From: Deinococcales bacterium
GTDB lineage: Bacteria > Deinococcota > Deinococci > Deinococcales > JAAFIG01
Direction of reading: 5' to 3'
Assembly: GCA_013298595.1 (NCBI GenBank)
Contig: JAAFIG010000001.1
Coordinates: forward strand, 249,056 to 313,055
Length of the DNA: 64,000 nucleotides
The translations under genes and the position numbers were made by a program. Shown here in pieces: positions 12,196 to 28,002 of the stretch. Each line of letters starts with the position of its first letter. Within the stretch, counting starts at the first letter, position 1. The notes below the pieces were generated by a model, which worked only from the letters and a program-made list of their open reading frames with translations, was not told the DNA's origin and made no database searches.

Positions 12196-12389
12196 GCAAA
12201 CCCCACCCCACTTAATTCAAGCATACCCCAGAAAAATTTGCTTCTTTGGTTAAAAGTAACACAGACCACACCGCATTTCCGTACCCAGCACCCAAATGCC
12301 CTAAACACTGTCAAAGACAATGTCAAACCAATACACAAAGCTAAAGGAATCGCCTATCACAACCCCTACAATGCACTCGGGGGTTTGCA

Positions 12390-14366
12390 CTAATTCATAC
12401 GGTATTTGAGTTCTTGCTTTAACTGCGACAACGTCGGAGGTAATTCGCCAACCTCAGCTAAAAACTGAGATTCCACCATACTCATTGCCTTACGACTTGC
12501 CAGCGCACCCTCGACTTCTCGAGTGGCACGAACCAACAACTCGTTGAGGCTTTCGTCGAGTGGTTCGACTTTTAGTAAGCGTTCTGTTAAACGCCGACAA
12601 GCTTGATAATCTCCGGTTTCGTACATCTCCTGCACCAATTTCAATCCGCTACGTACAAGTAACCATTCCACGTTTGCACGCACCTCCTCGATCCACTGCC
12701 CTTCAAAGCCGCGAAGGAAGGGTCCTTTGCAAAGCTCGAGGGCGGTGTAGAAATCATTTTCCGTAGGAGCGTGCAGCAAACGTGCAACTTCAGCGTAGTC
12801 AAACTCTAACGGAACGGAGTCCGTCTCGAGGGTGTAGGTTTTGGTACTGCGATCATAAGCAAAACGCAGCGAAGGAATAGCCGCTTGAATTTCGTAACGA
12901 GCCGTGTGGAAGTAACTTTTACCCGCTTCGACACCTTTAGAATTTTCAAAAACATCGGTAACAATTTTTTCCAAAGAAGTACCTGGATGCAAGTACAAAT
13001 ACGCCATCATTGCTAAGGATTTTTGTAAACGCACCACCGTCGGTTGACCATTGACCAACAACGTCGCATCACCCATTGCTTGCAAACGCAACACTCGAGC
13101 CGCAGGACGCTCCTCTATTGGCAAACGAGCCGCAGCCTGACGACCATGCAACGCAAACGCACCATACGAAGAAGCAATCGCCGTTAACGGCTCGAGATCA
13201 CCAATAAAACGGCGTTCTAACTCGAGGAAACCAGCATTCTCGGTAATATGAACCACATCCGAAACCAAATCCAAGTGTTGTGAAGCCACAGCCACATTAC
13301 CCATTTTTAAGTGCAAATTAGCAAGTTGCAATAAAGTCCAACCGAGTTCACGCCGCCACTCGAGGTCTTGGAAAATAATACGAGCTGCTTCTAAATGTTG
13401 TAAAGCTGGTTGTAAATTACCAATAGCTACTTGGTACTGCCCACGCCTAAGCTCGAGCAAACCATGTTCCCCACGAGATTGAACAGCTAAATCTAATTGG
13501 CAGAGTTGCCCACGAGCATGGTCGAGTTCTTGGTTATGGACAAACATACCGATTAAATAGAACTGAGCACGAGTACTCAATGACTGATTCTCTGAGCGCT
13601 TTTGGCAATCGTGGATAGCTTGTAATAGTGTTGTAATAGCTTTTTGTGGTTGCTCGAAATACTCATTTAATGATGCGTTGATACTGTACTTAATATTCAG
13701 TTGCGGGTTGTCACGTACTAGATTTTTAACAGCATTAAGCTCATCTTGAGATTCTTCATAACGTTCGAGGAAAAATGTAATTTCAGCTCGAGACATACGA
13801 AGATATACTTCCCAACTACCTTGTGCATTTTGTAAAGCCTGATCAAGATACTCTAAAGCTTTGCCACAAAAACCAGACGCAAAATACGCACCTGCAATAC
13901 CTTGCCCAATAGCTTGAATCAATGAACCACTATCTGCGAGTAACTTGGCTTCTACCCAAGCTTTTTTTAGATAGTTTAGGGCAAGACGCATTTTTCCATG
14001 CCGATAAGCTATATCACCTTTAATAAATTGTAGTTGTACTTGGTCTCGAGGAACCAAGTTATTGATGTCTATACTATTAATAACTTGCTCAGCTTCGTCT
14101 GGCTCCCCTTGTAAAATTGCCAACTGTACCAAATCTACATTTGCACCATAGTCACCAAACTGGATCGCTTTTTTTAAATAAATTGTGGCTTGTGTAAATT
14201 CACCAAGCCCCCAATATGCCCGCCCCGCAGAACGATACTCCGTCCCTGACACATCTTTTAAGTATTGAAAAGCATGAATTGCATTCTGATAATTCCCTAA
14301 TTGCATGAATGTAGCCAAGCGGTTGCACGCGGCTGCATTTGATTGGGAAGCGATTGCATGAGACAT
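12390..14366 (-). CDS. TPR sensor with C-terminal winged-helix and BTAD domains
   Basis: The 658-residue protein has N-terminal tetratricopeptide-like helical repeats (about 15-390). These are followed by an OmpR-like winged helix (about 420-515, starting Leu-Arg-Leu-Gln-Ala-Met-Gly-Asp) and a BTAD bacterial transcriptional activation domain (about 530-640). SARP-type regulators carry wHTH-BTAD at the N-terminus; here the DNA-binding part is C-terminal behind the TPR sensor. It is divergent from a 39-residue exported peptide gene with only 53 bp between starts, as in peptide-pheromone receptor loci. Its C-terminus has a truncated paralogue at 15184-15360. Likely an activator controlled by a peptide or protein ligand; this role is inferred. 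Confidence 0.82.
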   Translation of the reverse strand: MSHAIASQSNAAACNRLATFMQLGNYQNAIHAFQYLKDVSGTEYRSAGRAYWGLGEFTQATIYLKKAIQFGDYGANVDLVQLAILQGEPDEAEQVINSIDINNLVPRDQVQLQFIKGDIAYRHGKMRLALNYLKKAWVEAKLLADSGSLIQAIGQGIAGAYFASGFCGKALEYLDQALQNAQGSWEVYLRMSRAEITFFLERYEESQDELNAVKNLVRDNPQLNIKYSINASLNEYFEQPQKAITTLLQAIHDCQKRSENQSLSTRAQFYLIGMFVHNQELDHARGQLCQLDLAVQSRGEHGLLELRRGQYQVAIGNLQPALQHLEAARIIFQDLEWRRELGWTLLQLANLHLKMGNVAVASQHLDLVSDVVHITENAGFLELERRFIGDLEPLTAIASSYGAFALHGRQAAARLPIEERPAARVLRLQAMGDATLLVNGQPTVVRLQKSLAMMAYLYLHPGTSLEKIVTDVFENSKGVEAGKSYFHTARYEIQAAIPSLRFAYDRSTKTYTLETDSVPLEFDYAEVARLLHAPTENDFYTALELCKGPFLRGFEGQWIEEVRANVEWLLVRSGLKLVQEMYETGDYQACRRLTERLLKVEPLDESLNELLVRATREVEGALASRKAMSMVESQFLAEVGELPPTLSQLKQELKYRMN

Positions 14367-14419
14367 AAAAATGGAATCCTTAAACTTGCAACAATTAGTT
14401 AGACCTTCTAGGAGAGATT

Positions 14420-14539
14420 ATGAAAAAAGTATTACGTATGGCATTGGTAGTGGTTCTTGGTTTAATGGCATCTGGTATTGCAAATGCAGACGGTCAATCA
14501 GGCGGAGTTCTCCCACCTCGAGTTTGCTCATCTTGCTAA
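14420..14539 (+). CDS. 39-residue exported peptide, candidate signal or processed peptide
   Basis: This short gene encodes a signal peptide (Met-Lys-Lys-Val-Leu-Arg, hydrophobic core, Ala-Asn-Ala at 21-23) and only 16 more residues: Asp-Gly-Gln-Ser-Gly-Gly-Val-Leu-Pro-Pro-Arg-Val-Cys-Ser-Ser-Cys. A GGAGAG Shine-Dalgarno lies 4 nt before the ATG. The tail has a Gly-Gly that a C39 peptidase (one is encoded at 24463) might cut, and two Cys. It is divergent from the TPR-BTAD regulator, so a secreted peptide sensed by that regulator is an attractive model. Too short for homology from memory. Confidence 0.72.
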   Translation: MKKVLRMALVVVLGLMASGIANADGQSGGVLPPRVCSSC

Positions 14540-14704
14540 TCCCTAACTTACAACAAAAACTTGCTTCACGTTGTTTATTCCACCCAAATTACCTTCACGG
14601 ATTGTTTATCCTTATTATACGCCCTTAAACCAGCCTAGGATTCTCCCCCAAAAGCTGGCAGCCCAGTAATTGCAATCCCCCGATTAAACACTGGGCTATT
14701 AAGG

Positions 14705-14730
14705 AAAGGCGGCTTAAATGCCGCCTTTTA
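14705..14730 (+). terminator. Intrinsic terminator-like hairpin
   Basis: A 9-bp perfect stem AAAGGCGGC/GCCGCCTTT with a 6-nt loop is followed by a short T tract. It probably ends the transcript of the 39-residue peptide gene, leaving a roughly 170-nt 3' region with further possible stems. Confidence 0.7.
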
Positions 14731-14918
14731 CTTTTGTTACCCACTCGAGCAAATACCAAAAACACACATCTGAACTCACCGTTCTCGAGACAAATTACCT
14801 CGGGTTTATACCAGAGTTTAAATAAGCTCGAGGCTCGAGCCTGAAAGCAATACCCGTTCAGAATAAAAACTCGAGATGTGAAAAGCCGCTCTCTATCCGT
14901 CTCGCTTGAAGCTCGCCA

Positions 14919-15031
14919 CCTTTCTCTCGCAAGCGAAAGAAAGGAAGAAACAATCCTAAAGCACTTTTTGGCAAGCAAAAGAAAGGAAAAAAGCACGGCT
15001 CTTAAAGCCCTCTTTCGCTTGCGAGAGAGGG
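14919..15031. repeat. Inverted pair of REP-like palindromes
   Basis: Two related imperfect palindromes, 14919-14944 and 15008-15031, share the core CTCTCGCAAGCGAAAG, in opposite orientation and separated by about 64 bp. The type (C-rich stem, GCAAGC or GCTTGC centre, then GGTTGGGTGAGAG) resembles REP elements found in many bacteria, where inverted doublets form REPIN units. No REP-associated transposase gene is visible. Confidence 0.65.
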
Positions 15032-15183
15032 TTGGGTGAGAGTTCACCAGCCAACGTTCTTATCATCTCGAGCCAGAGCCTACCCACCAACAACCCTCAA
15101 GAACTAACAAAGCTCGAGTTTTTGTGACTCGAGCCAAAACAAGATTTGTAAAACCTGTTAAGCAGTTCTTTCAACCTCGAGCC

Positions 15184-15360
15184 TTAATTGATAGGCAAAC
15201 GAATTTCTTGTTTCAACTGCGCCAACGTTTGTGGCAACTCGCCAACTTCGGCAATAAACTGAGATTCGACTAAATTCACGGCTTGATGCCCAGCCAATAC
15301 ACCCTCGATTTCTCGAGTCACCCGTACCAGCAATGCGTTTACAGGTTTCAGTACGCTTTC
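15184..15360 (-). pseudogene. Remnant of a BTAD regulator C-terminus
   Basis: Read leftward, this encodes about 58 residues closely matching the last part of the regulator at 12390 (Leu-Leu-Val-Arg-x-Thr-Arg-Glu, Val-Glu-Ser-Gln-Phe, Ala-Glu-Val-Gly-Glu-Leu-Pro), ending at the equivalent stop. Everything upstream is missing. The break at about 15360 joins directly to a remnant of the LuxR-type gene tail, so a deletion removed the divergent region between them. Confidence 0.8.
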
Positions 15361-15387
15361 AAACCTCGAGCATTTAGCCATTCACAA
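15361..15387 (+). pseudogene. Remnant of the LuxR-type HTH gene 3' end
   Basis: The bases match the last codons of the LuxR-type gene at 20884-20908 (Leu-Glu-[Asn/His]-Leu-Ala-Ile then Arg or His) and lead into the same leader sequence. It marks the left limit of the duplicated segment in the first module. Confidence 0.7.
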
Positions 15388-15715
15388 GAATTTGTCATAG
15401 TACATTTATCATATGCAGTTTGTAACTCGGCAAAACACAAACCTTGTGCCAAGATACACCCATCAACTCGAGTTGAAATCCCAAGAAGTAAAAGAGGTAA
15501 CAATGAAGTTTTTGTCTCGAGTAACAAGGATTCTACTAGCAACAATGGTTGCTTCCCAAGGTGCAATGCTTGTTCCTGCAATGGCAGCCAGCCAAGGCAA
15601 GCAATTAGCAGTCAAAGCCATTGGAATGGCTGAACTGAAAAGTGAATTCGGAGCAGGTGGTGGGGGCGGCGGGAGCGGTGGACCAGTTGTAGTTGACCCA
15701 GGTAATGGAGGTGGT
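15361..15715 (+). repeat. Duplicated segment, copy 1: leader plus conserved N-terminus
   Basis: About 350 bp are nearly identical to 20884-21246: the tail of a LuxR-type gene, a 115-bp untranslated leader, and the signal-peptide and Gly-rich coding part of the first secreted protein. Similarity stops abruptly after the codons for Val-Asp-Pro-Gly. Confidence 0.88.
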
Positions 15716-16231
15716 GGAAATCCGAGTTGCCAATATAATTGGAACGCAAATCAATACTGTGATTGGGTTGACCGTAATACCATCACCGAAGTTCAAACTG
15801 ATTACTCAGATTGGATTGAGTTTAGGGATGTTGGTTTTCCTATAATTTCATGTGATGCAGGTAATGGTTCAACATGTGCTCAACGATCATATGAAGCGTC
15901 TGTTGCAGTTGCAATAAATATTCAGTTCTCAGTTGCTGATCCCCAAGGAGTATATTCTGGTGCAGTTGCTTTATCGATTCAAGCTGGAGCAGCTATAAGT
16001 GCCTCTTTTGAAAATGTTCCTAATGGTACACAACTCAAAGGATTTTTAAAACTAGATTGGCAACGTCGTGGTGGATACTATACCGCTGTTTACCGTGATG
16101 ATACTGGTGTTGTAGGAAGGTTTACAGTTGGTCCTAATTGGCAACGAACAACAGTAGCTAGTTATTCCTATACAGTCCTTAAACGTCCAAACGCTAATTC
16201 AAGCTGGATATTACCTAATAGGGGTTATTAA
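15503..16231 (+). CDS. Secreted Gly-rich protein with variable C-terminus, module 1
   Basis: The 242-residue protein starts at ATG 15503 (AAGAGG Shine-Dalgarno); an upstream in-frame ATG at 15413 lies in the conserved leader. The signal peptide ends at about residue 28 (Pro-Ala-Met-Ala). A leader-like segment, Ile-Gly-Met-Ala-Glu-Leu-Lys-Ser-Glu-Phe-Gly-Ala, resembles double-glycine leaders (hydrophobic at -12, Glu-Leu at -8/-7, Gly-Ala at -2/-1). A Gly-Ser linker and Pro-Val-Val-Val-Asp-Pro-Gly follow. The first part up to there is almost identical to the protein at 21033. The remaining 165 or so residues, with four Cys and a beta-rich pattern, are not, and match no family I know. CTCGAG is present in the conserved part and absent from the variable part. 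Confidence 0.82.
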   Translation: MKFLSRVTRILLATMVASQGAMLVPAMAASQGKQLAVKAIGMAELKSEFGAGGGGGGSGGPVVVDPGNGGGGNPSCQYNWNANQYCDWVDRNTITEVQTDYSDWIEFRDVGFPIISCDAGNGSTCAQRSYEASVAVAINIQFSVADPQGVYSGAVALSIQAGAAISASFENVPNGTQLKGFLKLDWQRRGGYYTAVYRDDTGVVGRFTVGPNWQRTTVASYSYTVLKRPNANSSWILPNRGY

Positions 16232-16243
16232 TTTTTATAATCA

Positions 16244-16275
16244 GTTTAGCTTACTTTAATTAAAGTAAGCTAAAC
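16244..16275. other. Perfect 32-bp palindrome between cargo and partner gene
   Basis: A 16+16 perfect inverted repeat (arm GTTTAGCTTACTTTAA) lies 12 bp after the first gene's stop and 21 bp before the next start. There is no T tract, so it is not a plain terminator. It could stabilise or process the mRNA or lower partner expression. A hairpin of unrelated sequence but the same size sits at the same place in module 2. Confidence 0.85.
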
Positions 16276-16296
16276 CAAACACAAATGGAGTTAATT

Positions 16297-16878
16297 ATGT
16301 CGAAATACCTAGTTACAATTTTAGCATTTTCTTTAGGTGGAATTTTGAGTTTTTTATTTTTCGGTGGAGAAAAAACTATTATGGTAAAAGTTGAAAATAA
16401 TTTTTATCCTGTTAGTTTACAGGAAATTAAAAATATAGAATTTAAAAAAGATTATTCAATAAAATTAAATTATAAAAAAAGATCAGAAGAAATAAAAAGC
16501 TCAGATAGTATTAGAAAATTAGCTTTCGACTATTCAAAAAAAGTTTTTAATATCGAAAGTATTAATCCCGAAGAGAAATTACTATCTTCAAAAGCTGTAA
16601 TGATTTATTTAAAAACGAATGTGAAAATTCAAAACCTGACCAAAGTTTTAGTTTTTTCAAAAGATACTCAGAATAAAATCGAAGGAGATTATAAAGTTTT
16701 TAAAGATGGTTATTCCTTAGGATTTTGTCCAAAAATCCCCTATCCAGATGGGGAGTATGAAGTTTTAATAGAAAAAATTTGTTTTAAAGATAATCAATGT
16801 ATAAATAATCTTAAATTTAAATTTATGGTATCTGATTTAGCACAATCAAACCCCTTTGAGGCAAAATGTGAATTCTAA
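16297..16878 (+). CDS. AT-rich membrane-anchored partner protein, module 1
   Basis: The roughly 193-residue protein starts at ATG 16297 with a GGAG Shine-Dalgarno. It has one N-terminal membrane segment (Leu-Val-Thr-Ile-Leu-Ala-Phe, Leu-Phe-Phe-Gly-Gly). The Lys/Ile/Glu-rich extracytoplasmic part contains four Cys near the end (Gly-Phe-Cys-Pro, Ile-Cys-Phe-Lys-Asp-Asn-Gln-Cys, Lys-Cys-Glu-Phe). Base composition is far more AT-rich than the neighbourhood and no CTCGAG occurs. No family recognised. Position after a variable secreted protein suggests a partner or immunity protein. This is inference. Confidence 0.78.
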   Translation: MSKYLVTILAFSLGGILSFLFFGGEKTIMVKVENNFYPVSLQEIKNIEFKKDYSIKLNYKKRSEEIKSSDSIRKLAFDYSKKVFNIESINPEEKLLSSKAVMIYLKTNVKIQNLTKVLVFSKDTQNKIEGDYKVFKDGYSLGFCPKIPYPDGEYEVLIEKICFKDNQCINNLKFKFMVSDLAQSNPFEAKCEF

Positions 16879-16964
16879 ATTATCTTCTCTCTTTCTTTTA
16901 TATTTACATTAAGTTAAACAGACCTTGAAAAGAGCTTGAATGAAAGTTATTTCTTTTCACAATT

Positions 16965-17047
16965 TACATTCGGCTTCTTGGACTTTACTGAATGGTAAAC
17001 GCATCTTGTAATCTCGTCTCACAGACCTACAATTTACGCTCGAGAAA
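16965..17047 (+). pseudogene. Remnant of the TolC-like gene
   Basis: The bases match 22815-22905 inside the TolC-like gene (shared core GGTAAACGCATCTTG, then ATCTCGTCTC and CAGACCT). The copy carries a nonsense change (CAA to TAA) and small deletions. It shows that the first module once continued into the same export gene as the second. Confidence 0.8.
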
Positions 17048-18280
17048 TTACTTTTTTAGCCAATTTAGAGCTGCCTCAAGTTGTGTATCCCGACCTTGGG
17101 TTAACGCATCTAAATCAAGTGGTACAGCTTCATCTGGGATGACTCGAGGCGGTAACCATTTACCATCTAAATCTTGATACTTACCGTTTCCATAAAGTAG
17201 TTTCGCACCAGACTCATATTCTTTCACTGTTGCACTTGTTTCCATTGCCCCTACTGTTGCTTCGCCAAAAACTCTTGCCACACCATTAGTTTGTAACAAA
17301 TGAGCAAGCTGTTCCCCAGCACTATATGTATCAAAAGATACCAGAATAGCTACTTTGCCTTCAAATTTTGCTACTCGGTTTAAAGTCCCTTCGTACTCAC
17401 CTGTTTGGGTGGCATCATCTGCATTACGCCAAGAAATACCTTTTCCGTTAAACTCAAGAATCCAATGGATTCCATCTTTTGGTATAAGAATCCGACCTGG
17501 TTTTGGCATAAATGCCGCTGCCATTTTCATACTAGTCAAACTTGTACCTCCCGAGTTATTCCTGAGGTCGATTATAATATTCTTGATATTGTTTTCATTA
17601 GCTTTAGTGATTAAATCATGAAATGCTTGTTCTCTATACTCGTCTGTTTCTAACACTCGAATAACCATTGCATCTTCTTTGATTAATGAAACAATTGGAA
17701 GAAATGGTTTTGAATCTGTTGCACGTATCGAAAAAAATTTTCGTACTCCCGACCTTAAAACAGTCAATTGTGTTTCTAAAAAACTAACTTCCATTTTCCT
17801 AAGAATTTGACCAAGTTCGTTCGGCTTTCTCGGAAGACCATTGACCTCAATAATTTGGTCATTCACATTTAAACCAGCCCTTTGCGCGGGCGTATCTGGA
17901 TAAATGTACGTGATCAAAAATAATTTACTGTTCCCTGAGCCAAAAAACCCAAATCTACCAGATGGATTAGGAGATCCCAATGAATTATAGCCCCATAAAT
18001 TGTCATAAAAAACTAAATGAACGTCGTTAAACGAACTAAGCATTGTCTTTATAATCTTTTTTACATTTGCATAAGTGCACTCTATGGGCTTTTCACACAT
18101 TTGATTAAGCATTTTTCTATTTAGTGCAATTACCTGATCAATATTCACATTTTTAGGATTTACATATTCTTCTTGAAGAATCTTTGCGACAAAATTGAAC
18201 AATCGTTTACCATCCATATTTTGAGAGAAGACTATTCCAAAAAAGCTGAAAATCGCTCCAAGAAGAATACGTTTAAACAT
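17048..18280 (-). CDS. S41-family (C-terminal processing) peptidase
   Basis: The 410-residue protein has a signal peptide or anchor (to about residue 20). A PDZ domain lies at about 125-190 (Tyr-Pro-Asp-Thr-Pro-Ala-Gln-Arg-Ala-Gly-Leu-Asn-Val-Asn-Asp-Gln-Ile). The S41 core includes Ile-Ile-Asp-Leu-Arg-Asn-Asn-Ser-Gly-Gly near 240 and the nucleophile region Asp-Thr-Tyr-Ser-Ala-Gly-Glu-Gln near 317. Family members cut unstructured C-termini of periplasmic proteins. It carries only one CTCGAG in 1.2 kb, and it is convergent with module 1 and cotranscribed after the TPR/lipoprotein pair. A maturation role for the local secreted proteins is possible. Confidence 0.88.
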   Translation of the reverse strand: MFKRILLGAIFSFFGIVFSQNMDGKRLFNFVAKILQEEYVNPKNVNIDQVIALNRKMLNQMCEKPIECTYANVKKIIKTMLSSFNDVHLVFYDNLWGYNSLGSPNPSGRFGFFGSGNSKLFLITYIYPDTPAQRAGLNVNDQIIEVNGLPRKPNELGQILRKMEVSFLETQLTVLRSGVRKFFSIRATDSKPFLPIVSLIKEDAMVIRVLETDEYREQAFHDLITKANENNIKNIIIDLRNNSGGTSLTSMKMAAAFMPKPGRILIPKDGIHWILEFNGKGISWRNADDATQTGEYEGTLNRVAKFEGKVAILVSFDTYSAGEQLAHLLQTNGVARVFGEATVGAMETSATVKEYESGAKLLYGNGKYQDLDGKWLPPRVIPDEAVPLDLDALTQGRDTQLEAALNWLKK

Positions 18281-18307
18281 TAGACATAACCTCTATTTCA
18301 TTATAGT

Positions 18308-18526
18308 TTATCGGGGCATACAGCCATTTGTACTGCCACCACGAGGTTGTGGATCTGTTGGAACAAAAGGACCTGGTTGTATGTTTTGAAGTGTTACGGT
18401 TGAGCCGCATAGAGTAACTGTACTACCACCTTGGCTTTGTATTGTTTGATTCTGTTGAGGTTCTGGTGTGGTTCCACAACTCGCTAATACTATTGGAATA
18501 ACTAAGACTAACCATACTTTCTTCAT
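18308..18526 (-). CDS. 72-residue lipoprotein coupled to the TPR protein
   Basis: This small protein has a lipobox (Val-Leu-Ala-Ser-Cys, Cys at about 17) and a Gln/Pro/Thr/Gly-rich tail with Gln-Gly-Gly-Ser-Thr-Val-Thr-Leu-Cys-Gly and a final Gly-Cys-Met-Pro-Arg. Its ATG overlaps the stop of the TPR gene (ATGA), with the GGAGG inside that gene, so their translation is coupled. A TPR protein followed by an overlapping small exported peptide gene recalls Rap-Phr pairs. The lipidated signal or tail could be a signal source, but no homologue is recognised. Confidence 0.72.
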   Translation of the reverse strand: MKKVWLVLVIPIVLASCGTTPEPQQNQTIQSQGGSTVTLCGSTVTLQNIQPGPFVPTDPQPRGGSTNGCMPR

Positions 18527-20274
18527 ACATGACCTCCATGTGGTTCTACAACATGCCAGACATCTTTGATGCGGGCATTTCCGAAAAGCACCTTAGAAAT
18601 AATTTTCTCGAGTGCATTTAAGGCTGGAATTTGGGCAGTTTGTTGCAATTGTGGCAATAAACCAAAATTTCGGTACAGTTGCTGAGCAGCTTCTTGCAAC
18701 GTTTCACGCTGCTTTGGTAATTCATCGGCTGCCTCGAGTAATGCAACAATTAAACGAGCTGGTGGTACTGGGTCAAACCAAAACATATTTGCGCCATACG
18801 GACGTTTTAAACACATTGTAAATGCCTCGAGTTGTCCGCCACCCATTCGACTTAGAAAAATAGGGATTGCAAAACTAGCCAGTGTAAACTCGGCTGCTTG
18901 TAATGGACGTAAACCTGTTTGACCATATACACCAATAGGTCGGGCATTTAAGTTAAGAATGGCACTTTGTCCAGCAGCAATAACAATTTCTGGAACATTA
19001 CCTAAAACACTTAGGCAAGCCAAAGCATATGGTGTGAACAACTGTAAAGCATCAACAATTTGGCGCAGCACATGGATTTCAACGGCACTTAGTACATGTT
19101 GCAACTCGAGGGCAATATCAAGTAAATCTGTGCGTTGCACCTGCGAAGAATTAATTCGCAAAACAGCCTCGAGTTTTGTTGTTAAACCAAGAATTCGTGC
19201 CCATTGGGGATAATTTTCTAATTGACTAATTGTTGGTAAATTAGGTAAAACAAGTCCATAATCACCTGCTCTTAACGAGCACAACGCGTTGAGTATTCTC
19301 TCAAACCCAGCTCGCCACGTATTTGGGTTATAAGCGAAATCACTAGAAACCAAACGGGCATTTCGGAAAGCTGTTTGACGTTCATCAGTCTGTAAATTAG
19401 CTGTAAACGCTTTGGTTAAGTACTGATACGTTTTTGCTAATGAAGCAGTTCTATTTGTTACTAAATGAATAGGAATATTTTCTTGTATCACAAGTAAAGT
19501 TAATAATTGGTATGTCTGCAAATGGGCTTTAAGATCGTTTGTTGCATCTGTTTGCTCCGCTGAAATCTGCAAAACACCTGTAAAGTCGCCTTCAAAAAGC
19601 AACGCTTGTGCAATACTTACAGCACCCTGAAAACGAAACGGAAAGTTATTAGGGTCTTTTTGTAACTCACTCATCATAGCAAGAGCGGATTTTGATTTTC
19701 CAAGACAATGTAAACACATTGCCACTAAACTTCTTGCACTATAAATCGTAGTTTGCAAACCAACAATTGGGGCAAGCATTGCCATTTTGCTGGCGTACAG
19801 ATGTGCTAGTTCATAATCCTCTACAACTAAATAGGCTTCGCTGAGTATCAAATATACTCGCATTTCAAGTTCAAGTGCTAAAGCATTACGTTTTGGTAAT
19901 GCCTCTATTTGTTCGAGGATATGTTTTACTGTGGGAATTGCTGTTTGGACTGTAATTGGAGCTTGTGCATCACTTGAAAAACTTTTGCGAATTGTTAAAA
20001 ACGCTGCTTGATAACGTCCAAATAATTGTATCACTTTATCTTCTGCCAGCAGCAATTGCCCAGCCAATTGATATGCCATATCGAATTTATCAGGTTCCAC
20101 ACCTAAAATCAGGGTGGCGCGGAGCAAGCCAATTTCGGTTTCTGTTGCAATCAAATACTCTGCAAGCACCGACCTCGAGACACCTTGTATTTGCAAACTG
20201 TTATTGCGCCATGTTTCGTAAGCACTGGCAACAGCTAAATCTGGGAGTGGTGGTATGGGTTGGCTTAGTGTCAT
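18523..20274 (-). CDS. TPR-like helical repeat protein, possible peptide receptor
   Basis: The 583-residue protein is almost entirely helical with TPR-like repeats (for example Leu-Gly-Lys-Ser-Lys-Ser-Ala-Leu-Ala-Met, Ala-Tyr-Leu-Val-Val-Glu-Asp-Tyr-Glu-Leu-Ala-His). No signal peptide, HTH or enzymatic motif is visible; the C-terminal 130 residues are Leu/Ala-rich. It is divergent from the LuxR-type gene across a 403-bp control region and coupled to a small lipoprotein. It may act as a cytoplasmic sensor for the locus; this is contextual. It contains six CTCGAG sites, so it is an older resident than the partner genes. Confidence 0.72.
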   Translation of the reverse strand: MTLSQPIPPLPDLAVASAYETWRNNSLQIQGVSRSVLAEYLIATETEIGLLRATLILGVEPDKFDMAYQLAGQLLLAEDKVIQLFGRYQAAFLTIRKSFSSDAQAPITVQTAIPTVKHILEQIEALPKRNALALELEMRVYLILSEAYLVVEDYELAHLYASKMAMLAPIVGLQTTIYSARSLVAMCLHCLGKSKSALAMMSELQKDPNNFPFRFQGAVSIAQALLFEGDFTGVLQISAEQTDATNDLKAHLQTYQLLTLLVIQENIPIHLVTNRTASLAKTYQYLTKAFTANLQTDERQTAFRNARLVSSDFAYNPNTWRAGFERILNALCSLRAGDYGLVLPNLPTISQLENYPQWARILGLTTKLEAVLRINSSQVQRTDLLDIALELQHVLSAVEIHVLRQIVDALQLFTPYALACLSVLGNVPEIVIAAGQSAILNLNARPIGVYGQTGLRPLQAAEFTLASFAIPIFLSRMGGGQLEAFTMCLKRPYGANMFWFDPVPPARLIVALLEAADELPKQRETLQEAAQQLYRNFGLLPQLQQTAQIPALNALEKIISKVLFGNARIKDVWHVVEPHGGHV

Positions 20275-20677
20275 ATGGTTTGGCTTTCTTGGTGTTTTTA
20301 CTACTGCATTAACGTAACCTGAATTTTCATTTTTGCCGCGACAGTTCTGCGACAGTTTGCAAGCCAGAAAAATAATAACTCTTTCAGAAAGGCTTAAATA
20401 GATTATTTTACACTCGAGTTCACGTTCGGAACTATTTTAAGTTAGCAACAAAAAACCATATTTTTTCAGGCATTTATTGCAGCATTTACAACCATTAACA
20501 AAACACGCAATGATAAACCCAAAAAAACCGTCGCAAAACCGTCGCTCATAAAAAATAAACGTACCGTATTCTTAGTACAACCAATACAAATTGGTACGAA
20601 ACAAAAAAAGAAATACCCAATTTAAGGTACGACAAAAAGAAACTTCGCTCGTAAAATCTCAATCACGGGAGGCATTT
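20275..20677. promoter_or_regulatory. Divergent control region with 11-bp-period repeats
   Basis: The 403-bp spacer separates the TPR gene from the LuxR-type gene. GCGACAGTT occurs twice at 20338-20346 and 20349-20357, and AACCGTCGC (nearly its reverse complement) twice at 20526-20534 and 20537-20545. Both pairs have an 11-bp period, one helical turn, as in SARP/BTAD operators. A third element, GTACC...GGTACG, occurs at 20562-20620 near the LuxR-type start. These are candidate sites for the BTAD and LuxR-type regulators. Confidence 0.55.
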
Positions 20678-20917
20678 ATGATCAATACGCCCACAGTAAA
20701 ACTCACCACTCGAGAACTCGAAACACTCCACCGAGTCGCCCAAGGATTCAGCGATGTTGAAATATCAAAGCAACTAGGCAACAAAGCAGGCACTGTTCGG
20801 AACACACTCGGCACTATTCGCTTAAAATTATCTGCGTACACCAACAAACCCCTGAATAAACGCGTGAACTTAACCACTTTTTACCTCGAGAATTTAGCCA
20901 TTCGCAACCAAGACTAG
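20678..20917 (+). CDS. Small LuxR-type (GerE) helix-turn-helix protein
   Basis: The 79-residue protein starts at ATG 20678 with a GGGAGG Shine-Dalgarno. It is a stand-alone LuxR/GerE DNA-binding domain: Leu-Thr-Thr-Arg-Glu-Leu-Glu-Thr-Leu, Ala-Gln-Gly-Phe-Ser-Asp-Val-Glu-Ile-Ser, then Lys-Ala-Gly-Thr-Val-Arg-Asn. There is no sensory domain. It is first in the module 2 operon and its 3' end is inside the duplicated segment, so module 1 has lost it. Likely a local regulator acting with another sensor. Confidence 0.85.
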   Translation: MINTPTVKLTTRELETLHRVAQGFSDVEISKQLGNKAGTVRNTLGTIRLKLSAYTNKPLNKRVNLTTFYLENLAIRNQD

Positions 20918-21246
20918 AATTTTGTCATAGTACATTTATCATATGCAGTTTGTAACTCGGCAAAACACCAAACCCATGCAACAATACACGCATCAACTCG
21001 AGTTGAAATCCCAAGAAGTAAAAGAGGTAACAATGAAGTTTTTGTCTCGAGCAACAAGAATTCTACTAGCAACAATGGTTGCTTCCCAAGGTGCAATGCT
21101 TGTTCCTGCAATGGCAGCCAGCCAAGGCAAGCAATTAGCGGTGAAAGCTATTGGAATGGCTGAACTGAAAAGCGAATTTGGAGCAGGTGGCGGCGGCGGC
21201 GGGAGTGGTGGCGGCGGACCAGTTGTAGTTGACCCAGGCGAGGCTG
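20884..21246 (+). repeat. Duplicated segment, copy 2: leader plus conserved N-terminus
   Basis: Near-identical partner of 15361-15715. It includes the 115-bp leader (20918-21032), whose sequence is as conserved as the coding part, implying a functional untranslated region. Confidence 0.88.
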
Positions 21247-21686
21247 GTGGTAGTTGTACAATATATGATGGCTCTTGTAGTCTTGAAATGTATTCATCAA
21301 CAATTGGTGACCTTGTACAATCACAAACTGCCAATGGTGCTTATTCTGGTCAGCAACTTGTGAATGATTCTGCTGTTTTTTCAAAGGTCATCCAAAAAAC
21401 TTTTTCAGACGGTTGTCGCTTGACCCTTTCTGGTTCAGTTGGTGTATCAGTACCTGCTGGAGTTGGAATTGGTGTAGAAAGACCATGCAGTGATGTGCAA
21501 GTTGTTTCAAAAGAATTGCCTCGATTAGGGCGTGCAAATATCTATTATAACGAGTGGACATCCACGTATAAAGAGTATCTGATGTTCAAATGGATACGTA
21601 ATAATGTGAGCGCTGGATATGCTGGTATGAGAACTGATAGTAAGCGAAAAGTTGAACGCGTCTACTATGCTGGACCAAATCTTTAA
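21033..21686 (+). CDS. Secreted Gly-rich protein with variable C-terminus, module 2
   Basis: The 217-residue protein shares the signal peptide, the Met-Ala-Glu-Leu-Lys-Ser-Glu-Phe-Gly-Ala leader-like segment and the Gly/Ser linker with the protein at 15503, then diverges after Val-Asp-Pro-Gly. The unique part has four Cys (Ser-Cys-Thr-Ile, Gly-Ser-Cys-Ser, Asp-Gly-Cys-Arg, Arg-Pro-Cys-Ser), beta-like strands (Ser-Gly-Ser-Val-Gly-Val-Ser-Val) and a basic end. No known toxin or adhesin motif is recognised. It is followed by its own AT-rich partner gene. Conserved export part plus swapped C-terminus is the pattern of polymorphic effectors or antigenic proteins. Confidence 0.82.
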   Translation: MKFLSRATRILLATMVASQGAMLVPAMAASQGKQLAVKAIGMAELKSEFGAGGGGGGSGGGGPVVVDPGEAGGSCTIYDGSCSLEMYSSTIGDLVQSQTANGAYSGQQLVNDSAVFSKVIQKTFSDGCRLTLSGSVGVSVPAGVGIGVERPCSDVQVVSKELPRLGRANIYYNEWTSTYKEYLMFKWIRNNVSAGYAGMRTDSKRKVERVYYAGPNL

Positions 21687-21700
21687 ACAATTGTAGTTTC

Positions 21701-21733
21701 GTTACCGTTATTCATAGTATGAATAACGGTAAC
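21701..21733. other. Hairpin between cargo and partner gene, module 2
   Basis: Perfect 15-bp arms (GTTACCGTTATTCAT and its complement) with a 3-nt loop lie 14 bp after the secreted-protein stop and 14 bp before the next start. The size and position equal those of the 16244-16275 palindrome, but the sequence is unrelated. No T tract follows. Confidence 0.85.
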
Positions 21734-21747
21734 ACAAAGGGTTTATT

Positions 21748-22536
21748 ATGAAAAAAATTGTTTTGTTTTTATTATTTTTATTTATGAGTCTTTGTCTTGC
21801 TAGTACAGATAAGTATATAAAAATTAATGGAAAAAACTATTCAAAAATTGGCTACGTTAGTTTAGATTTAATTCCGCAAAATAATAAAATCGATTTTATA
21901 AATTTAGGTTTTCAGAAGCCTTTATTAGTATCTAAATGCAGTACATCTATAAAAATAGATAAATTGACAAAAAACACAATTTCTTTTTCTTTTTCCAGAG
22001 GGAAAAATGAAAAATGCCTATTTTATCTAAAAGAAAAAACTCAAAAAATCGAAATTAACTTAAATATTACACATGTCGTCGGTTTATTTAAAAATTGCCA
22101 ACTAACCCCTCAATTTGAAGTAGGTTCAGTATCTACTAATCATATTAAAAAATACTATCCAGAAATAAATTTTTTATCTCAAGATTCGTTATCTGTTCGT
22201 TCTATTATAAATTACTATGATTTTACTGAAAAAGTAACCAATTTAACTTATTATTTTGACAATTATTTAAGTCCATTATTCATCTACGGACAGTTTGCAA
22301 ATTATGAATACCCTATTGGGTTTAACGCAAAATATATTTCAAGAAAACTTCCCAGTACTGGTGAAAAATCTACAACATTGGGTGTAATTCACCCTTCAGG
22401 TTTTTTTGCTAGAAGAGATTTAAGTACAGGAGGTGAATTTTACTTTGTACCAAATGCTTTTAGTAAAGGAATCTTTTTTACAAATAGCAAGAATGAACGC
22501 TGTGTTGAATTTCAACGTTTTTCTTCTGGACGATAA
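21748..22536 (+). CDS. AT-rich exported partner protein, module 2
   Basis: The 262-residue protein has a cleavable signal peptide (Leu-Phe-Leu-Leu-Phe-Leu-Phe-Met-Ser-Leu-Cys-Leu-Ala-Ser) and a Lys/Ile/Asn/Tyr-rich, probably beta-structured extracytoplasmic part with several Cys. Start ATG 21748 is weakly preceded by AAAGGG. It is unrelated in sequence to the partner in module 1 yet occupies the same slot. It has strong AT bias and no CTCGAG. Function unknown; a cognate binding or immunity role toward the preceding secreted protein is the simplest idea. Confidence 0.78.
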   Translation: MKKIVLFLLFLFMSLCLASTDKYIKINGKNYSKIGYVSLDLIPQNNKIDFINLGFQKPLLVSKCSTSIKIDKLTKNTISFSFSRGKNEKCLFYLKEKTQKIEINLNITHVVGLFKNCQLTPQFEVGSVSTNHIKKYYPEINFLSQDSLSVRSIINYYDFTEKVTNLTYYFDNYLSPLFIYGQFANYEYPIGFNAKYISRKLPSTGEKSTTLGVIHPSGFFARRDLSTGGEFYFVPNAFSKGIFFTNSKNERCVEFQRFSSGR

Positions 22537-22579
22537 CCCAAATCCTTGACCTATTTCGCAAAATTTACAAAGGATATAT

Positions 22580-23884
22580 ATGCTCAAATACTTTATTATT
22601 TTGTTATTCCTGATTTTTGGATATTCGGATGCTTTAGTTCACTCTGATATAGAGATAGCATTTGAAAAAAATTATGAACCATCTCAGTTCAGTACACAAA
22701 ATATAAACCAAGCATTTTCTGGTCTCGAAGATGCAAATATTGCTTACCTTCCTCGAGTAGGTCTAACCGAAACTCTAAACAGCTCGAATTTCCAAACGCC
22801 TAGTTTACAAATCACATTCAACACTGCTTGGACTCTAATAGATGGTAAACGCATCTTGCAATCTCGTCTCGCAGACCTGCAATTGCAATTTGCTACGCTC
22901 GAGAAAACCCTCGAGAAATCCAATGCTCTGCTTAATCTTCGTCAGTACGTGCAAGCTTTGAATACGTACGAACTGGGTATTACTTTGCTGCGTTCCCTCG
23001 AGTCGGATATTCGTAAGCAACGCCCGCTCTGGACTGTAGAAACTCCCGCGAAGCAATTTGCTCCGAATGAAATTGATTCTTACACTAAGTTCCTCGAGTT
23101 TATTGATACCCGTAAATCGCTCGAGGTGCAAGCGGAGCGTTTGCGTAAACAACTTGTAAAATGGACGAAACTGCCTGCTGCCGATCTTGCCGAGGGTAAA
23201 ATTGTTTTCCCTGGTGATCCAATTTTGCCTAGTTCGGTTTTGGATGTATCCGCTTGTGTTGAACAAAGTGCTAATGTTGTGCGTTCCAAATTACGACTCG
23301 AGCAAGAAAAAGTTTTTGAGGCTTTACGAAATGATGCTTCGCCGACGTTAACAGTCAGTGGTCAGGTTGGTGTGACTACGGCTGCGCCAATTGGTCAGTC
23401 CCCTGTTTCGGCTCAGGTTTCTTTAACCCTGAATATTCCACTTCCTAGCACTGGGGCTGTGACTGGTGGCGCTTCGGCAACAGTTTCTCCTACGGGTGCT
23501 TCGCAAACCGCGAATCTCTCTTTTCCTAATCAGTTTCGTCAGGCAGACCCGCAAGGTGTGAAATGGGCAGAGAAAAACGTAGCCGATACTCGAGAAGCCA
23601 CCACCGATGACATTCTCGAGGCACTGCGTTCTCGGGAGAACTTAAAAAACAATGTTTTGCTGGCTAAGCAACGGCTCGAGTGGGGTGAACGTTCGCTGCG
23701 TGAAGCAACAAGTGCGGATGCTCTGGCAAAAATCAATGCGCGTTTTTCACTCATGGGTTTAAAAATTCGTGGTGCTTACGATCACTTAAATTTGCAATTA
23801 AATTCGTTATCTCTGGCAAATACCTGCAATCTTAAATTCTCTTATGCCCCTCGAGACGCTGTGTTTACTGTGGTGAAACAGTAA
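22580..23884 (+). CDS. TolC-like outer-membrane export protein
   Basis: The 434-residue protein has a signal peptide and two long heptad-rich helical regions (about 80-225 and 325-410). A Thr/Ser/Val-rich beta region between them (Thr-Val-Ser-Gly-Gln-Val-Gly-Val-Thr, Gln-Val-Ser-Leu-Thr-Leu-Asn-Ile-Pro-Leu) and a short N-terminal strand complete the helix-strand-helix layout of TolC/outer-membrane efflux proteins. No ABC or membrane-fusion partner is adjacent. The first 170 bp are AT-rich and free of CTCGAG; the rest is dense in it, so the 5' end may be recombinant. A decayed copy exists at 16965. Confidence 0.62.
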   Translation: MLKYFIILLFLIFGYSDALVHSDIEIAFEKNYEPSQFSTQNINQAFSGLEDANIAYLPRVGLTETLNSSNFQTPSLQITFNTAWTLIDGKRILQSRLADLQLQFATLEKTLEKSNALLNLRQYVQALNTYELGITLLRSLESDIRKQRPLWTVETPAKQFAPNEIDSYTKFLEFIDTRKSLEVQAERLRKQLVKWTKLPAADLAEGKIVFPGDPILPSSVLDVSACVEQSANVVRSKLRLEQEKVFEALRNDASPTLTVSGQVGVTTAAPIGQSPVSAQVSLTLNIPLPSTGAVTGGASATVSPTGASQTANLSFPNQFRQADPQGVKWAEKNVADTREATTDDILEALRSRENLKNNVLLAKQRLEWGERSLREATSADALAKINARFSLMGLKIRGAYDHLNLQLNSLSLANTCNLKFSYAPRDAVFTVVKQ

Positions 23885-23962
23885 AGTCAAAACGATTTTT
23901 CAGATCACAACTCATCCCGAGTTACACATCATTCAAAGCCAGAAGCTTTGTCAGGAGTTCTT

Positions 23963-24466
23963 ATGTTTAAAACGGTTGCAATTGCAATGGTCGCTGGCTG
24001 CATGGGCGCAGTTATTGCCCTCTCGAGTGTACAAGCCATCCCTCAAGCCATTCGTCTTGGCTTTGTGGTTGTACCAGAAGTCATTAAGTCCACACCAGCA
24101 GGTGGGGCATTAAAGAAAATCGAGGCAGCTCGAGATCGGGAAGTCAAACCAATAGCTGCAAAAATCAAGGCGTTACAACCAAAAATGCGTTCTGGAAGTG
24201 CAACGTTCGAGGAACGTGACGAGTGGGATAAATTATCCAAGCAGTACGCAGCCATTGTCAAAAAGTATGATGTGCAATTTCAAAAAGTTTTGCAACCATT
24301 TGATAAAAAATTGCTGACTTCAATTAAGAATTCTGCTAATAAACAAGGATTTAGTTTAATTGTGGATGGCATTATTGCTACTGATAGTGGTTTGTTACTT
24401 TATGCTAATCAGGATGCAGCTAACATTACTAAGAATGTGATTGCCGAGTTTAAGTCACTGAAATGA
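23963..24466 (+). CDS. OmpH/Skp-like periplasmic chaperone
   Basis: The 167-residue protein starts at ATG 23963 (AGGAG Shine-Dalgarno). It has a signal peptide, Leu-Gly-Phe-Val-Val-Val-Pro-Glu-Val as first strand, a long basic coiled coil (about 45-125), and a C-terminal strand-helix (Phe-Ser-Leu-Ile-Val-Asp-Gly...Asn-Ile-Thr-Lys) as in Skp/OmpH. These trimers hold unfolded outer-membrane or secreted proteins in the periplasm. Its stop overlaps the C39 gene start (ATGA). Confidence 0.83.
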   Translation: MFKTVAIAMVAGCMGAVIALSSVQAIPQAIRLGFVVVPEVIKSTPAGGALKKIEAARDREVKPIAAKIKALQPKMRSGSATFEERDEWDKLSKQYAAIVKKYDVQFQKVLQPFDKKLLTSIKNSANKQGFSLIVDGIIATDSGLLLYANQDAANITKNVIAEFKSLK

Positions 24467-25056
24467 AACACATGACTACACTTTGGAATGTGTTATTTCG
24501 TGCTACTCGAGTTCGTGTTGTTTTAACTCGAGTTTTCCCTGTGCTGCTGGTTAGCTTCTTATGGTTTGCAGCTTTGTTCGTACCGACTATTGCTGCTATT
24601 CGTGGTACACCAGTAGCTTTACCACAACGTTTCTCGAATCTCGAGCGTTTAGAACTGGGTTGGAATGGAGTCAAACGCCAAGAAAAAGATAATACTTGTG
24701 GTTTGGCAGTGCTGTCTTTGTTGCTCGAGTGGGCTGGTGTTCCTGTGTCCGAAGCGAAACTTGCCAAGCAAACAACAGTATCCGCTCAGGGCATGAGTTT
24801 ATTTGCTTGGCAGGAATTAGCTAAAAAATATGGGGTTCAAGGCACTTGGTACCGAGCTGCTCCGCAAGCACTCGAGGATTTACCGATGCCTTTGGTGGCG
24901 CAAATCAAAGACCCAACTGGACATTTTGTGTTGGTGCAACGAGTGTATAACGATCATGTTTTGCTTGCCGATCCAAATGCGGGTTTGGTGTTGTATTCGG
25001 TTACCGAATTTCTACGGGTGTGGACTGGGCGTTCTTTTGTGCTGAGGGGCGTATGA
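24463..25056 (+). CDS. Membrane-anchored C39-type (double-glycine leader) peptidase
   Basis: The roughly 197-residue protein has one N-terminal membrane segment (about 20-45). A C39 fold follows: Gln-Glu-Lys-Asp-Asn-Thr-Cys-Gly-Leu-Ala with the catalytic Cys near 79, Gly-His-Phe-Val-Leu-Val with the catalytic His near 149, and Leu-Ala-Asp-Pro-Asn-Ala-Gly with the Asp near 167. C39 peptidases cut bacteriocin-type leaders after Gly-Gly or Gly-Ala, normally fused to an ABC exporter. Here it stands alone and probably faces the periplasm. The operon's secreted proteins carry a leader-like segment ending in Gly-Ala. Coupled on both sides by ATGA overlaps. Confidence 0.85.
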   Translation: MKHMTTLWNVLFRATRVRVVLTRVFPVLLVSFLWFAALFVPTIAAIRGTPVALPQRFSNLERLELGWNGVKRQEKDNTCGLAVLSLLLEWAGVPVSEAKLAKQTTVSAQGMSLFAWQELAKKYGVQGTWYRAAPQALEDLPMPLVAQIKDPTGHFVLVQRVYNDHVLLADPNAGLVLYSVTEFLRVWTGRSFVLRGV

Positions 25057-26543
25057 CTCGAGTTTTACCAAGTGTAACGGTTTTACCCAGAGTGCCTTTG
25101 TTTGTTTGGGCGGTACTCTCGAGTGTTGTCCTAAGTTTGGCTTTACGTCCGTGGGGTTTTGGCGCATTGGCTTTGCTGGCATTTATTCCTGTGATGATTG
25201 CTGTTTCTCAGGAACGTTCTTGGTGGAAAGCGGGTTTGTACTCGTACCTCACCATGCTTGGTGGTGTTTGGGTGGCACTCGAGGGTTTAGCTCGAGAGTT
25301 CACATTGGTTTTTATACTTGGTGTTTTTGTATTTTCAGGTGTTTTTGCTTTTGTTGGTATCAGTACTCTTTTTTTCAAACGTTTTTTTGGCTCAAGGGCA
25401 ATTCTGCTTTTTCCTATTATTTGGGTTGCGCTCGAGTTTTTAATCAGTCAACCAGTTTTGCTGGGCAGTTGGGCGAATCCAATTATGGCAATTGGGTACA
25501 CGCAATTTGATACATCTTTGTTGCAAGCAACGCGATGGTCTGGTGTGACAGGTGTGAGTTTTTTGGTTTTGCTTTTCAATGCAGTGCTTGCATTTATTGT
25601 AATTCGATGGCTCGAGCAACACCAATGGAAAGTGATTTCTTTTCTCCCATTGTTGCTTGTATTGCTCCTCTCGAGTTTAGCGGTTTTCTTACCAGTTCCG
25701 AGTAGTACTGCTAAAGGTAAGGCTTTTCGAGTTGGTATTGCCCAAGCGTACTTACCAACCCTCGAGTACACCATTGCTGATTTTGATTCAGGTGCTCAGG
25801 CGATTATCGCTAATCGGTATAAAATTTTACTCGAGCAATTAGTTAAACGTGGTGCTCAGATGGTGGTGCTCCCCGAAACCGCGCTTGGTGGGTGGTACGC
25901 AGACTTTGAGCGCAACGAATTACTGCTTGATACGCTTCGAGGTGTTTCCTTGGCTTTGGTTGGGGTCAAAACAGCTTATGTAGATAGTACTGGCAATCGT
26001 GAGGGACGCAATGCGATTCTCGAGTTTCAACGCGAAGCGAACCGAATTCGTGAAGTGTACGCTAAACAAATTCCGATTCCATTAACCGAAGGTGGTTTTA
26101 ACAAAGGTAAAAACCTTGGTTTAGTACGTTTAGGTGGTGTTGTTTTTGGATTGGGTATTTGTTGGGAGAATACATTTCCTGGGCTGGCGAGGGCTTCGGT
26201 GCTTGGTGGCGCTGAGGTTTTGGTGTATCAGAATAGTTTGCTCTGGGCTGGAGCAACTGCTACACCTGTTTTGCATCAGCGGATTAGTGCGTTCCGAGCG
26301 GTAGAAACAGGTCGTATGGTAATTCATGCGACAGCGGGAGGCTCGAGTGCTTTGATAGATGCTACAGGCAAAATAATAGAAGCTGCACCACAAAGCCTCG
26401 AGACAACTTTAATTGGGTTGGTACAACCTCGAGTTGGGTTGACTCCTTTTGTACAGTTTGGTGATTGGTTTGGTGTGCTTTGTGTAGCATTAACAATTTT
26501 TACTTTTGTCTTAGCTGGCATTAAACGCTTAAAGCCTAGGTAA
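25053..26543 (+). CDS. lnt: Apolipoprotein N-acyltransferase
   Basis: The roughly 496-residue protein has about six N-terminal membrane segments and a C-terminal carbon-nitrogen hydrolase domain with Glu in Leu-Pro-Glu-Thr-Ala near 275, a Lys around 330-345, and Cys in Gly-Ile-Cys-Trp-Glu-Asn near 379. Lnt adds the third acyl chain to lipoproteins, which fits the many lipobox proteins in this window. Start ATG 25053 overlaps the C39 stop; a longer frame from 25020 is less likely. Confidence 0.88.
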   Translation: MTRVLPSVTVLPRVPLFVWAVLSSVVLSLALRPWGFGALALLAFIPVMIAVSQERSWWKAGLYSYLTMLGGVWVALEGLAREFTLVFILGVFVFSGVFAFVGISTLFFKRFFGSRAILLFPIIWVALEFLISQPVLLGSWANPIMAIGYTQFDTSLLQATRWSGVTGVSFLVLLFNAVLAFIVIRWLEQHQWKVISFLPLLLVLLLSSLAVFLPVPSSTAKGKAFRVGIAQAYLPTLEYTIADFDSGAQAIIANRYKILLEQLVKRGAQMVVLPETALGGWYADFERNELLLDTLRGVSLALVGVKTAYVDSTGNREGRNAILEFQREANRIREVYAKQIPIPLTEGGFNKGKNLGLVRLGGVVFGLGICWENTFPGLARASVLGGAEVLVYQNSLLWAGATATPVLHQRISAFRAVETGRMVIHATAGGSSALIDATGKIIEAAPQSLETTLIGLVQPRVGLTPFVQFGDWFGVLCVALTIFTFVLAGIKRLKPR

Positions 26544-26581
26544 AGGGTACATCTCAGATGCCGTGAAAACCGTGTTTTACC

Positions 26582-26609
26582 GTAGGAGCGAGGCATGCCT
26601 CGCCCCTAC
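26582..26609. repeat. GTAGG-type palindromic repeat
   Basis: Near-perfect inverted repeat GTAGGAGCGAGGC / GCCTCGCCCCTAC around an AT centre, between convergent genes. Repeats of this kind (GTAGGGGCGAGGCATGCCTCGCC type) are dispersed in several bacterial genomes. It may also stop transcription from both sides. Confidence 0.6.
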
Positions 26610-26657
26610 AAATAATGTAATAGACACATTTTTGAAGAATCTATGTACAGTGAGGTA

Positions 26658-27491: not shown

Positions 27492-27604
27492 AAGTAAAAT
27501 TATAGCCTAAAATTGCAACACTCTACCAAGTACGAGTTTTGCTTGTTAAGGCAAAAAAGCAAAGTAATTCCATTGTTAGTGAAGTTTTGTACACTAATCT
27601 GGCT

Positions 27605-27946: not shown

Positions 27947-27968
27947 TTGCTGTTTTTTTGCACTACAT

Positions 27969-28002
27969 CCCCCCAAAATTATCTTTGGGGGGTAATTTTT
28001 TG
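27969..28002. terminator. Intrinsic terminator between convergent genes
   Basis: A 9-bp stem CCCCCCAAA/TTTGGGGGG with a 6-nt loop is followed by TAATTTTTT. It ends the HxlR-family transcript and may act on the opposite strand as well. Confidence 0.85.

Follow-up and report, generated by a model that had tools for sequence, protein, structure and literature searches.

Why would a bacterium encode the same export leader twice, nearly base for base, and join it to two dissimilar proteins, each followed by a different exported neighbour? This question is raised by a locus in a Deinococcales bacterium, a deep-branching relative of Deinococcus whose class also includes the Trueperaceae (Deinococcota). 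We analysed 64,000 nt of its 4.58-Mb genome (G000:C1:249056-313055), and this entire stretch is referred to as the window. The locus comprises two modules, each with a gene for a small Sec-exported substrate and a gene for an exported partner, and the second module continues as an operon with export and maturation genes. On balance, we consider it probable that a single small family of secreted proteins has, in this locus, an export and maturation system of its own; the description as a C39/Lnt/TolC export pathway fits the locus better than that as an effector-immunity system.

The operon of module 2 consists, in this order, of genes for a helix-turn-helix (HTH) protein, substrate 2, partner 2, a TolC-like protein, an OmpH-like protein, a C39 peptidase and a second apolipoprotein N-acyltransferase (Lnt); the genes are tightly packed and the last three overlap (Table 1). 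An earlier note on this DNA had listed the TolC-like, OmpH and C39 genes, which is borne out by their Pfam matches, while the final Lnt paralogue had escaped attention, as had the remnants of a TolC-like and of a BTAD gene and the genomic island, whose site is empty in a relative. A search with C39 covered 111 genomes of the class and found the same gene set in the Trueperaceae. There, Lnt directly follows C39 in 14 of 14 loci (L025-L038) and, contig permitting, the pair is followed by genes for a Sec-exported substrate, an exported partner of ~300 aa, a TolC-like protein and a membrane-anchored protein, an order that differs from that in the window. The Trueperaceae operon has a fixed position beside rpsF-ssb-rplI; in one genome the substrate, partner and TolC-like genes lie on a separate contig. 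Within the class, relatives of the TolC-like protein were found in no genome without the operon. A TolC fold of the window protein is supported by modelling: a predicted structure of medium confidence (predicted local distance difference test, pLDDT, 54) matched TolC in Foldseek (E=7.2e-9), and the sequence matches the Trueperaceae TolC profile (1e-18).

The Lnt paralogue scores 139.8 bits against an Lnt cut-off of 132.9, and in every genome tested a better-scoring, housekeeping Lnt is located elsewhere. In a tree of 30 Lnt sequences, the 15 operon Lnts, including that of the window, form one clade (100/100) apart from the 15 others, and the catalytic E-K-C residues are kept in all 15 of them. 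The tree and these residues thus mark the operon Lnt as an old paralogue with a line of inheritance of its own, possibly still active as an acyltransferase, and its presence speaks for a mechanism centred on N-acylation and on surface display or secretion. It could be argued that C39, Lnt and TolC just happen to lie beside genes for secreted proteins, with Lnt as a spare lipoprotein enzyme, since no experiment links these genes and Lnt duplicates exist also in the relatives G001-G003, which have no C39. However, the C39-Lnt pair is kept throughout a separate family in spite of a different gene order, and the operon Lnts have a clade of their own, so that chance proximity is very improbable and already largely refuted.

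Table 1 Features of the locus, with positions in the window.
Feature	Position	Strand	Remarks
Genomic island with both modules, regulators and export machinery	14540..26657	.	~12 kb, boundaries approximate
Remnant, 3′ end of a second BTAD/TPR regulator gene	15185..15339	-	72% DNA identity to 12391-12545
Conserved segment, copy 1	15363..15737	+	gapped alignment to 20883-21265
Substrate 1, cargo 1 precursor, 242 aa	15503..16231	+	cargo-1 domain preceded by Sec signal, leader IGMAELKSEFGA (15620-15655) and Gly linker
Exchanged cassette 1: cargo-1 domain and partner 1	15716..16878	+	without DNA homology to cassette 2
Partner 1, ~193 aa, N-terminal membrane segment and exported domain	16297..16878	+	start codon inferred, open reading frame also open from 16285
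Broken TolC-like gene remnant (residues 40-110), ends module 1	16862..17050	+	46% protein identity, 3 stops
LuxR-type HTH protein upstream of substrate 2	20591..20917	+	weak NCBIfam LuxR/NarL-type HTH matches
Conserved segment, copy 2	20883..21265	+	gapped alignment to 15363-15737
Substrate 2, cargo 2 precursor, 217 aa	21033..21686	+	cargo-2 domain preceded by Sec signal, leader IGMAELKSEFGA (21150-21185) and Gly linker
Exchanged cassette 2: cargo-2 domain, partner 2 and 5′ part of the TolC gene	21252..22803	+	homology returns at 22804
Partner 2, 262 aa, signal peptide	21748..22536	+	no family match
TolC-like outer-membrane channel protein	22580..23884	+	Pfam OEP 8.4e-5, slightly above gathering score
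OmpH/Skp-like periplasmic chaperone	23963..24466	+	Pfam OmpH 3.4e-10; open reading frame listed from 23948
Stand-alone membrane-anchored C39 peptidase, 197 aa	24463..25056	+	Pfam 8.4e-26; PDB C39 domain 8e-14
Second Lnt (apolipoprotein N-acyltransferase paralogue), last operon gene	25053..26543	+	Pfam LNT_N 1.9e-17, CN_hydrolase 3.9e-18

The window C39 and 12 of its 14 relatives have the catalytic Gln, Cys, His and Asp. With its N-terminal hydrophobic segment and without a fusion to an ATP-binding cassette (ABC) transporter, the window enzyme would act in the periplasm; the other C39 match of the host genome lies in a 727-aa frame on a different contig. Candidate target sites are found in the substrates. 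In both window substrates the leader IGMAELKSEFGA precedes a glycine run and agrees with a double-glycine leader at Ile -12, Glu -8, Leu -7, Gly -2 and Ala -1, and the Trueperaceae substrates possess textbook double-glycine leaders right after the Sec signal, e.g. LAASELTSVTGG and LGAGELEAVTAG, in which Leu, Glu-Leu, Thr and Gly are invariant among seven substrates. The leader peptides IGMAELKSEFGAGGGG and LAASELTSVTGGGC were regarded as candidate C39 targets. Double-glycine leader, C39 domain and TolC are also shared with the double-glycine type I export of bacteriocins and class II microcins. In the window, by contrast, C39 is a stand-alone protein predicted to be periplasmic and the precursor carries a Sec signal as well; a plain bacteriocin type I system was rejected, as there is no ABC transporter-fused C39 in the locus.

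A pathway can be proposed in which Sec would carry substrate and C39 enzyme to the periplasm, where signal peptidase would take off the signal and C39 would cut after the leader, that is after Gly-Ala in the window, leaving GGGGGGSGG, and after TAG or GG in the Trueperaceae. The Lnt paralogue would then N-acylate the new N-terminus, and the lipidated substrate, aided by OmpH and the partner, would reach the cell surface or the medium by way of the TolC-like channel, with the partner being specific to the cargo. The cargo C-terminus and the partner would represent one cassette, exchanged between the two modules. We tentatively suggest that this is an undescribed pathway of the Deinococcota, in which a periplasmic C39 cut at a double-glycine leader enables Lnt-type N-acylation before TolC-like exit and in which the cassettes are exchangeable; a literature search found no description of a C39/Lnt/TolC/substrate gene set.

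Several observations weigh against this pathway. The OmpH gene is absent from the Trueperaceae operons, and the catalytic Cys and His are gone from two of the C39 proteins in that family. The window leader has a Glu at -4, where a hydrophobic residue is expected, and the predicted mature N-termini differ, with poly-Gly in the window versus a Cys at +1 or +2 in the Trueperaceae. Neither an ABC or Lol-type motor nor an adaptor (equivalents of AatP, AatC and AatB) that would bring a lipidated protein to TolC was seen in the operon. Finally, localisation and cleavage were deduced from sequence only. The C39-like proteins without Cys and His (L034 2011-2661; L038 8557-9174, minus strand) are still paired with an Lnt paralogue, and their domains are perhaps binding-only.

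Two characterised systems resemble parts of this pathway. The Lnt homologue AatD acylates Sec-exported CexE on its N-terminal Gly before secretion; the acylation is stronger with more Gly residues, and the Aat system includes the TolC homologue AatA (PMC7943197). The window shares with Aat (CexE, dispersin Aap) a small Sec-exported substrate, a dedicated Lnt paralogue with catalytic residues, a TolC-like channel and a Gly-rich predicted mature N-terminus. It differs in that C39 would generate this N-terminus after a double-glycine leader, in that neither the genes at 12390-26543 nor the Trueperaceae operons that were read include a Lol-like ABC protein (AatP, AatC) or an adaptor (AatB), in its unrelated substrate, in its host from the Deinococcota and in the swapped cargo/partner cassettes. 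The link with an Lnt paralogue suggests a second, distant form of Aat-type N-acylation in the Deinococcota, the first having been described in enteric bacteria (PMC7943197).

The second system is Fap, in which the C39 peptidase FapD is active in the periplasm and required for Fap secretion, while its target was reported to be unclear and the Fap proteins lack canonical double-glycine sites (PMC5557850). A C39 outside the cytoplasm and unfused to an ABC transporter, Sec-exported substrates and an outer-membrane channel are common to both systems, but the present substrates have the canonical double-glycine leaders that are absent from Fap proteins, and the window system has, in place of FapF, a TolC-like channel, includes an Lnt paralogue and lacks amyloid repeats. 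The targets of periplasmic C39 peptidases are an open question, which becomes testable here because a non-cytoplasmic C39 adjoins a substrate with a textbook double-glycine leader. Could the cargo itself build fibres or amyloid, as a subunit that a FapD-type C39 matures and an outer-membrane channel exports? Periplasmic C39 and outer-membrane channel follow the Fap plan (PMC5557850), and the FapD model is one of those that C39 matches (E 1.3e-11 in the window, 3.2e-5 in a relative). These FapD scores of 44 and 23 bits, respectively, are far below the model cut-off of 330, though, the channel resembles TolC and not the trimeric barrel FapF, the substrates are compact Cys-containing domains without repeats, and Fap has not been described with Lnt. 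A fibre is hence improbable, and the functional-amyloid reading was rejected given the FapD score, the TolC-like channel and the lack of a Fap family match in Pfam and NCBIfam. By the tests made, the window system would work as a merger of Aat and Fap and belongs to neither.

What, then, is exported, and why in two versions? The modules are linked by a direct repeat of 291 nt with 93% DNA identity (15391-15681 and 20921-21211), and the conserved segment around it covers the last codons of the HTH gene, the upstream region, the signal peptide, the double-glycine-type leader and the Gly linker, in agreement with the earlier note. The first 53 substrate codons of the two copies show 7 synonymous and 1 non-synonymous differences, from which it follows that selection kept the leader as a protein in both copies. 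Past the Gly linker, the note had considered the C-terminal domains and the AT-rich exported proteins downstream to be mutually unrelated, and we likewise detected no significant similarity between the cargo domains (Smith-Waterman p=0.017, suggestive at most) or between the partners (BLASTP E=0.28). DNA homology returns inside the TolC-like gene, where 16956-17047 aligns to 22804-22906. Since the flanks are alignable and the inside is not, the duplication must once have spanned the region from the HTH end into TolC, and in one copy the cargo C-terminus and the partner gene were evidently exchanged as one cassette. The foreign base composition of the cassettes agrees with such an exchange: they are AT-rich (guanine-plus-cytosine (GC) content 24-40%; in cassette 1, 40% for the cargo and 24% for the partner). 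The two longest gaps without the palindrome CTCGAG in the window coincide with them (15516-17039 for cassette 1 and 21046-22752 for cassette 2), but low GC by itself could reduce the CTCGAG count, so that these gaps are supporting evidence only. The locus thereby offers a natural exchange of a cargo/partner cassette caught with both flanks intact.

Partners 1 and 2 have no Pfam or NCBIfam match, and the possibility that they belong to the two Trueperaceae partner families was discarded, as neither matched the corresponding profiles. Because cargo C-terminus and partner travel as one cassette, the partner is most likely cargo-specific: a cargo that acts as a membrane toxin would call for an immunity protein, a surface-protein cargo for a dedicated helper. 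According to the first option, the trimmed cargo would be a membrane-acting, perhaps beta-pore-forming, antibacterial toxin with an immunity protein in the periplasm or inner membrane, and module 1 would be an orphan cargo/immunity module near the main locus. Cargo and partner do change together between conserved flanks, the partners are exported, i.e. are located where immunity to a membrane toxin is needed, and module 1 consists of leader, cargo and partner with a broken TolC gene; the AT-rich, foreign composition of the cassettes fits as well. Double-glycine leaders are typical of bacteriocins. The resemblance to polymorphic or orphan toxin-immunity modules lies in the conserved N-terminal export part, the exchanged C-terminus and next gene, and the orphan near the main locus. 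The exchange of a variable C-terminus together with the gene after it, downstream of a conserved N-terminus, is a polymorphic-toxin trait that was found here in one case, with both flanks alignable. In contrast to such modules, only one swap is known, no toxin or immunity domain was recognised (no such family matched in the searches, which included Pfam and NCBIfam), and the cargo domain is conserved in the Trueperaceae, whose fixed operon beside rpsF-ssb is unlike a fast-swapping weapon. A toxin is thus a possibility that we take seriously without thinking it probable; it concerns the role of the cargo and is compatible with the export pathway proposed above.

The comparison of C-termini among homologues limits the swap further. 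The substrate homologues of the Trueperaceae belong to one C-terminal domain family in a conserved single operon, and no cassette exchange was seen among the Trueperaceae loci compared. The exchange of cargo and partner behind a conserved export part, which the earlier note had called the hallmark of effector-immunity, bacteriocin or antigen-variation systems, holds in the host genome; judged by the note's own criterion, whether homologues always keep one C-terminal domain, it is established for that genome alone and is not a hallmark of the system at large. The note's statement that the cargo domains have no known relatives stands for cargo 1, which gave no significant match, and fails for cargo 2, as its domain and the Trueperaceae substrates are homologous (HMMER 6.6e-7, ranked first of 2,004 test sequences; hhalign 79%, E 1.6e-5, reached by 0 of 150 shuffles). 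Cargo 1 may yet be a diverged member of the substrate family, but HMMER and hhalign performed no better than with shuffles, and Smith-Waterman against one Trueperaceae substrate was suggestive at most (p=0.005). No cargo 1 was found in plasmids.

Against PDB sequences, Pfam, NCBIfam and PHROGs, the cargo domains yielded nothing significant. When the substrate-family profile was compared with solved structures, six sub-threshold matches were obtained, the third of which was the aerolysin-type protein parasporin-2 (E=1.6); its alignment covers an Asn-rich/Ser-Gly/Val-Pro-Pro segment typical of aerolysin-type proteins. This match, which would suit a pore-forming toxin, is not significant, and an aerolysin-type kinship suggested by this segment is a lead, not a result. 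An AlphaFold model of cargo 2 from three sequences (pLDDT 33) was too poor for fold comparison.

According to the second option, the cargo would be a displayed adhesin or coat protein and the partner a periplasmic chaperone or inner-membrane tether, and the swap would yield surface variation, of a phage receptor or antigen. AatD-type acylation serves the surface display of a coat protein in Aat (PMC7943197), the Trueperaceae operon resembles a stable, core cell-surface function, and the Trueperaceae partners have Ig-like sequence features, as judged by eye. Set against this are the single known swap, the lack of any surface-protein family match and the poor cargo-2 model, and we regard a variable surface protein, too, as a serious possibility that falls short of probable.

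Both modules, the regulators and the export machinery lie on a genomic island. In the same-genus relative G001, orthologues of the genes at 11230-12216, 12390-14366, 26661-27506 and 27526-27978 are neighbours, and just 325 bp separate the BTAD gene from the orthologue of the gene at 26661. A search of the family relatives G001-G003 gave no substrate, C39 or TolC-like gene, and because all three are without the locus, gain of the ~12-kb island at this site is the simplest reading; loss in all three relatives is a possible alternative. The BTAD remnant at the island's left side has 58% protein identity over 57 aa.

A contig search with C39 gave no confirmed relative, a contig search with three close substrates returned two Trueperaceae/Deinococcota loci that were both already in the set, and low-scoring substrate matches in other Deinococcota genomes (L051-L058) were inspected and dismissed as chance. 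Nine Trueperaceae loci have kept the membrane-anchored protein that is encoded last in the operon (L027 14931-16136 and syntenic loci), for which no window counterpart was recognised by profile.

The palindrome CTCGAG occurs 347 times in the 64-kb window, compared with ~12 occurrences expected from base composition and 5.5 from dinucleotides. It is abundant also on another contig of the host genome and in the three family relatives (e.g. 97-115 per 19 kb), which resembles the HIP1 palindrome of cyanobacteria (PMC4390886). Between the modules, a gene for an S41/PDZ protease on the minus strand (17048-18526; GC 37%, one CTCGAG) is accompanied by a 72-aa lipoprotein-like reading frame. Just outside the island, a 39-aa Sec-type peptide (14420-14539, MKKVLRMALVVVLGLMASGIANADGQSGGVLPPRVCSSC) is encoded divergently from the TPR/BTAD regulator (12390-14366, minus strand). 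The same-genus relative has MKKVIKIVLVIALGLFAGSTVSANFLGGTLPPTACSGC at the equivalent site, and in two family relatives small Gly-rich exported peptides are divergent from the orthologous regulator; the 14420-14539 peptide and the regulator could be a peptide-signal/TPR-regulator pair.

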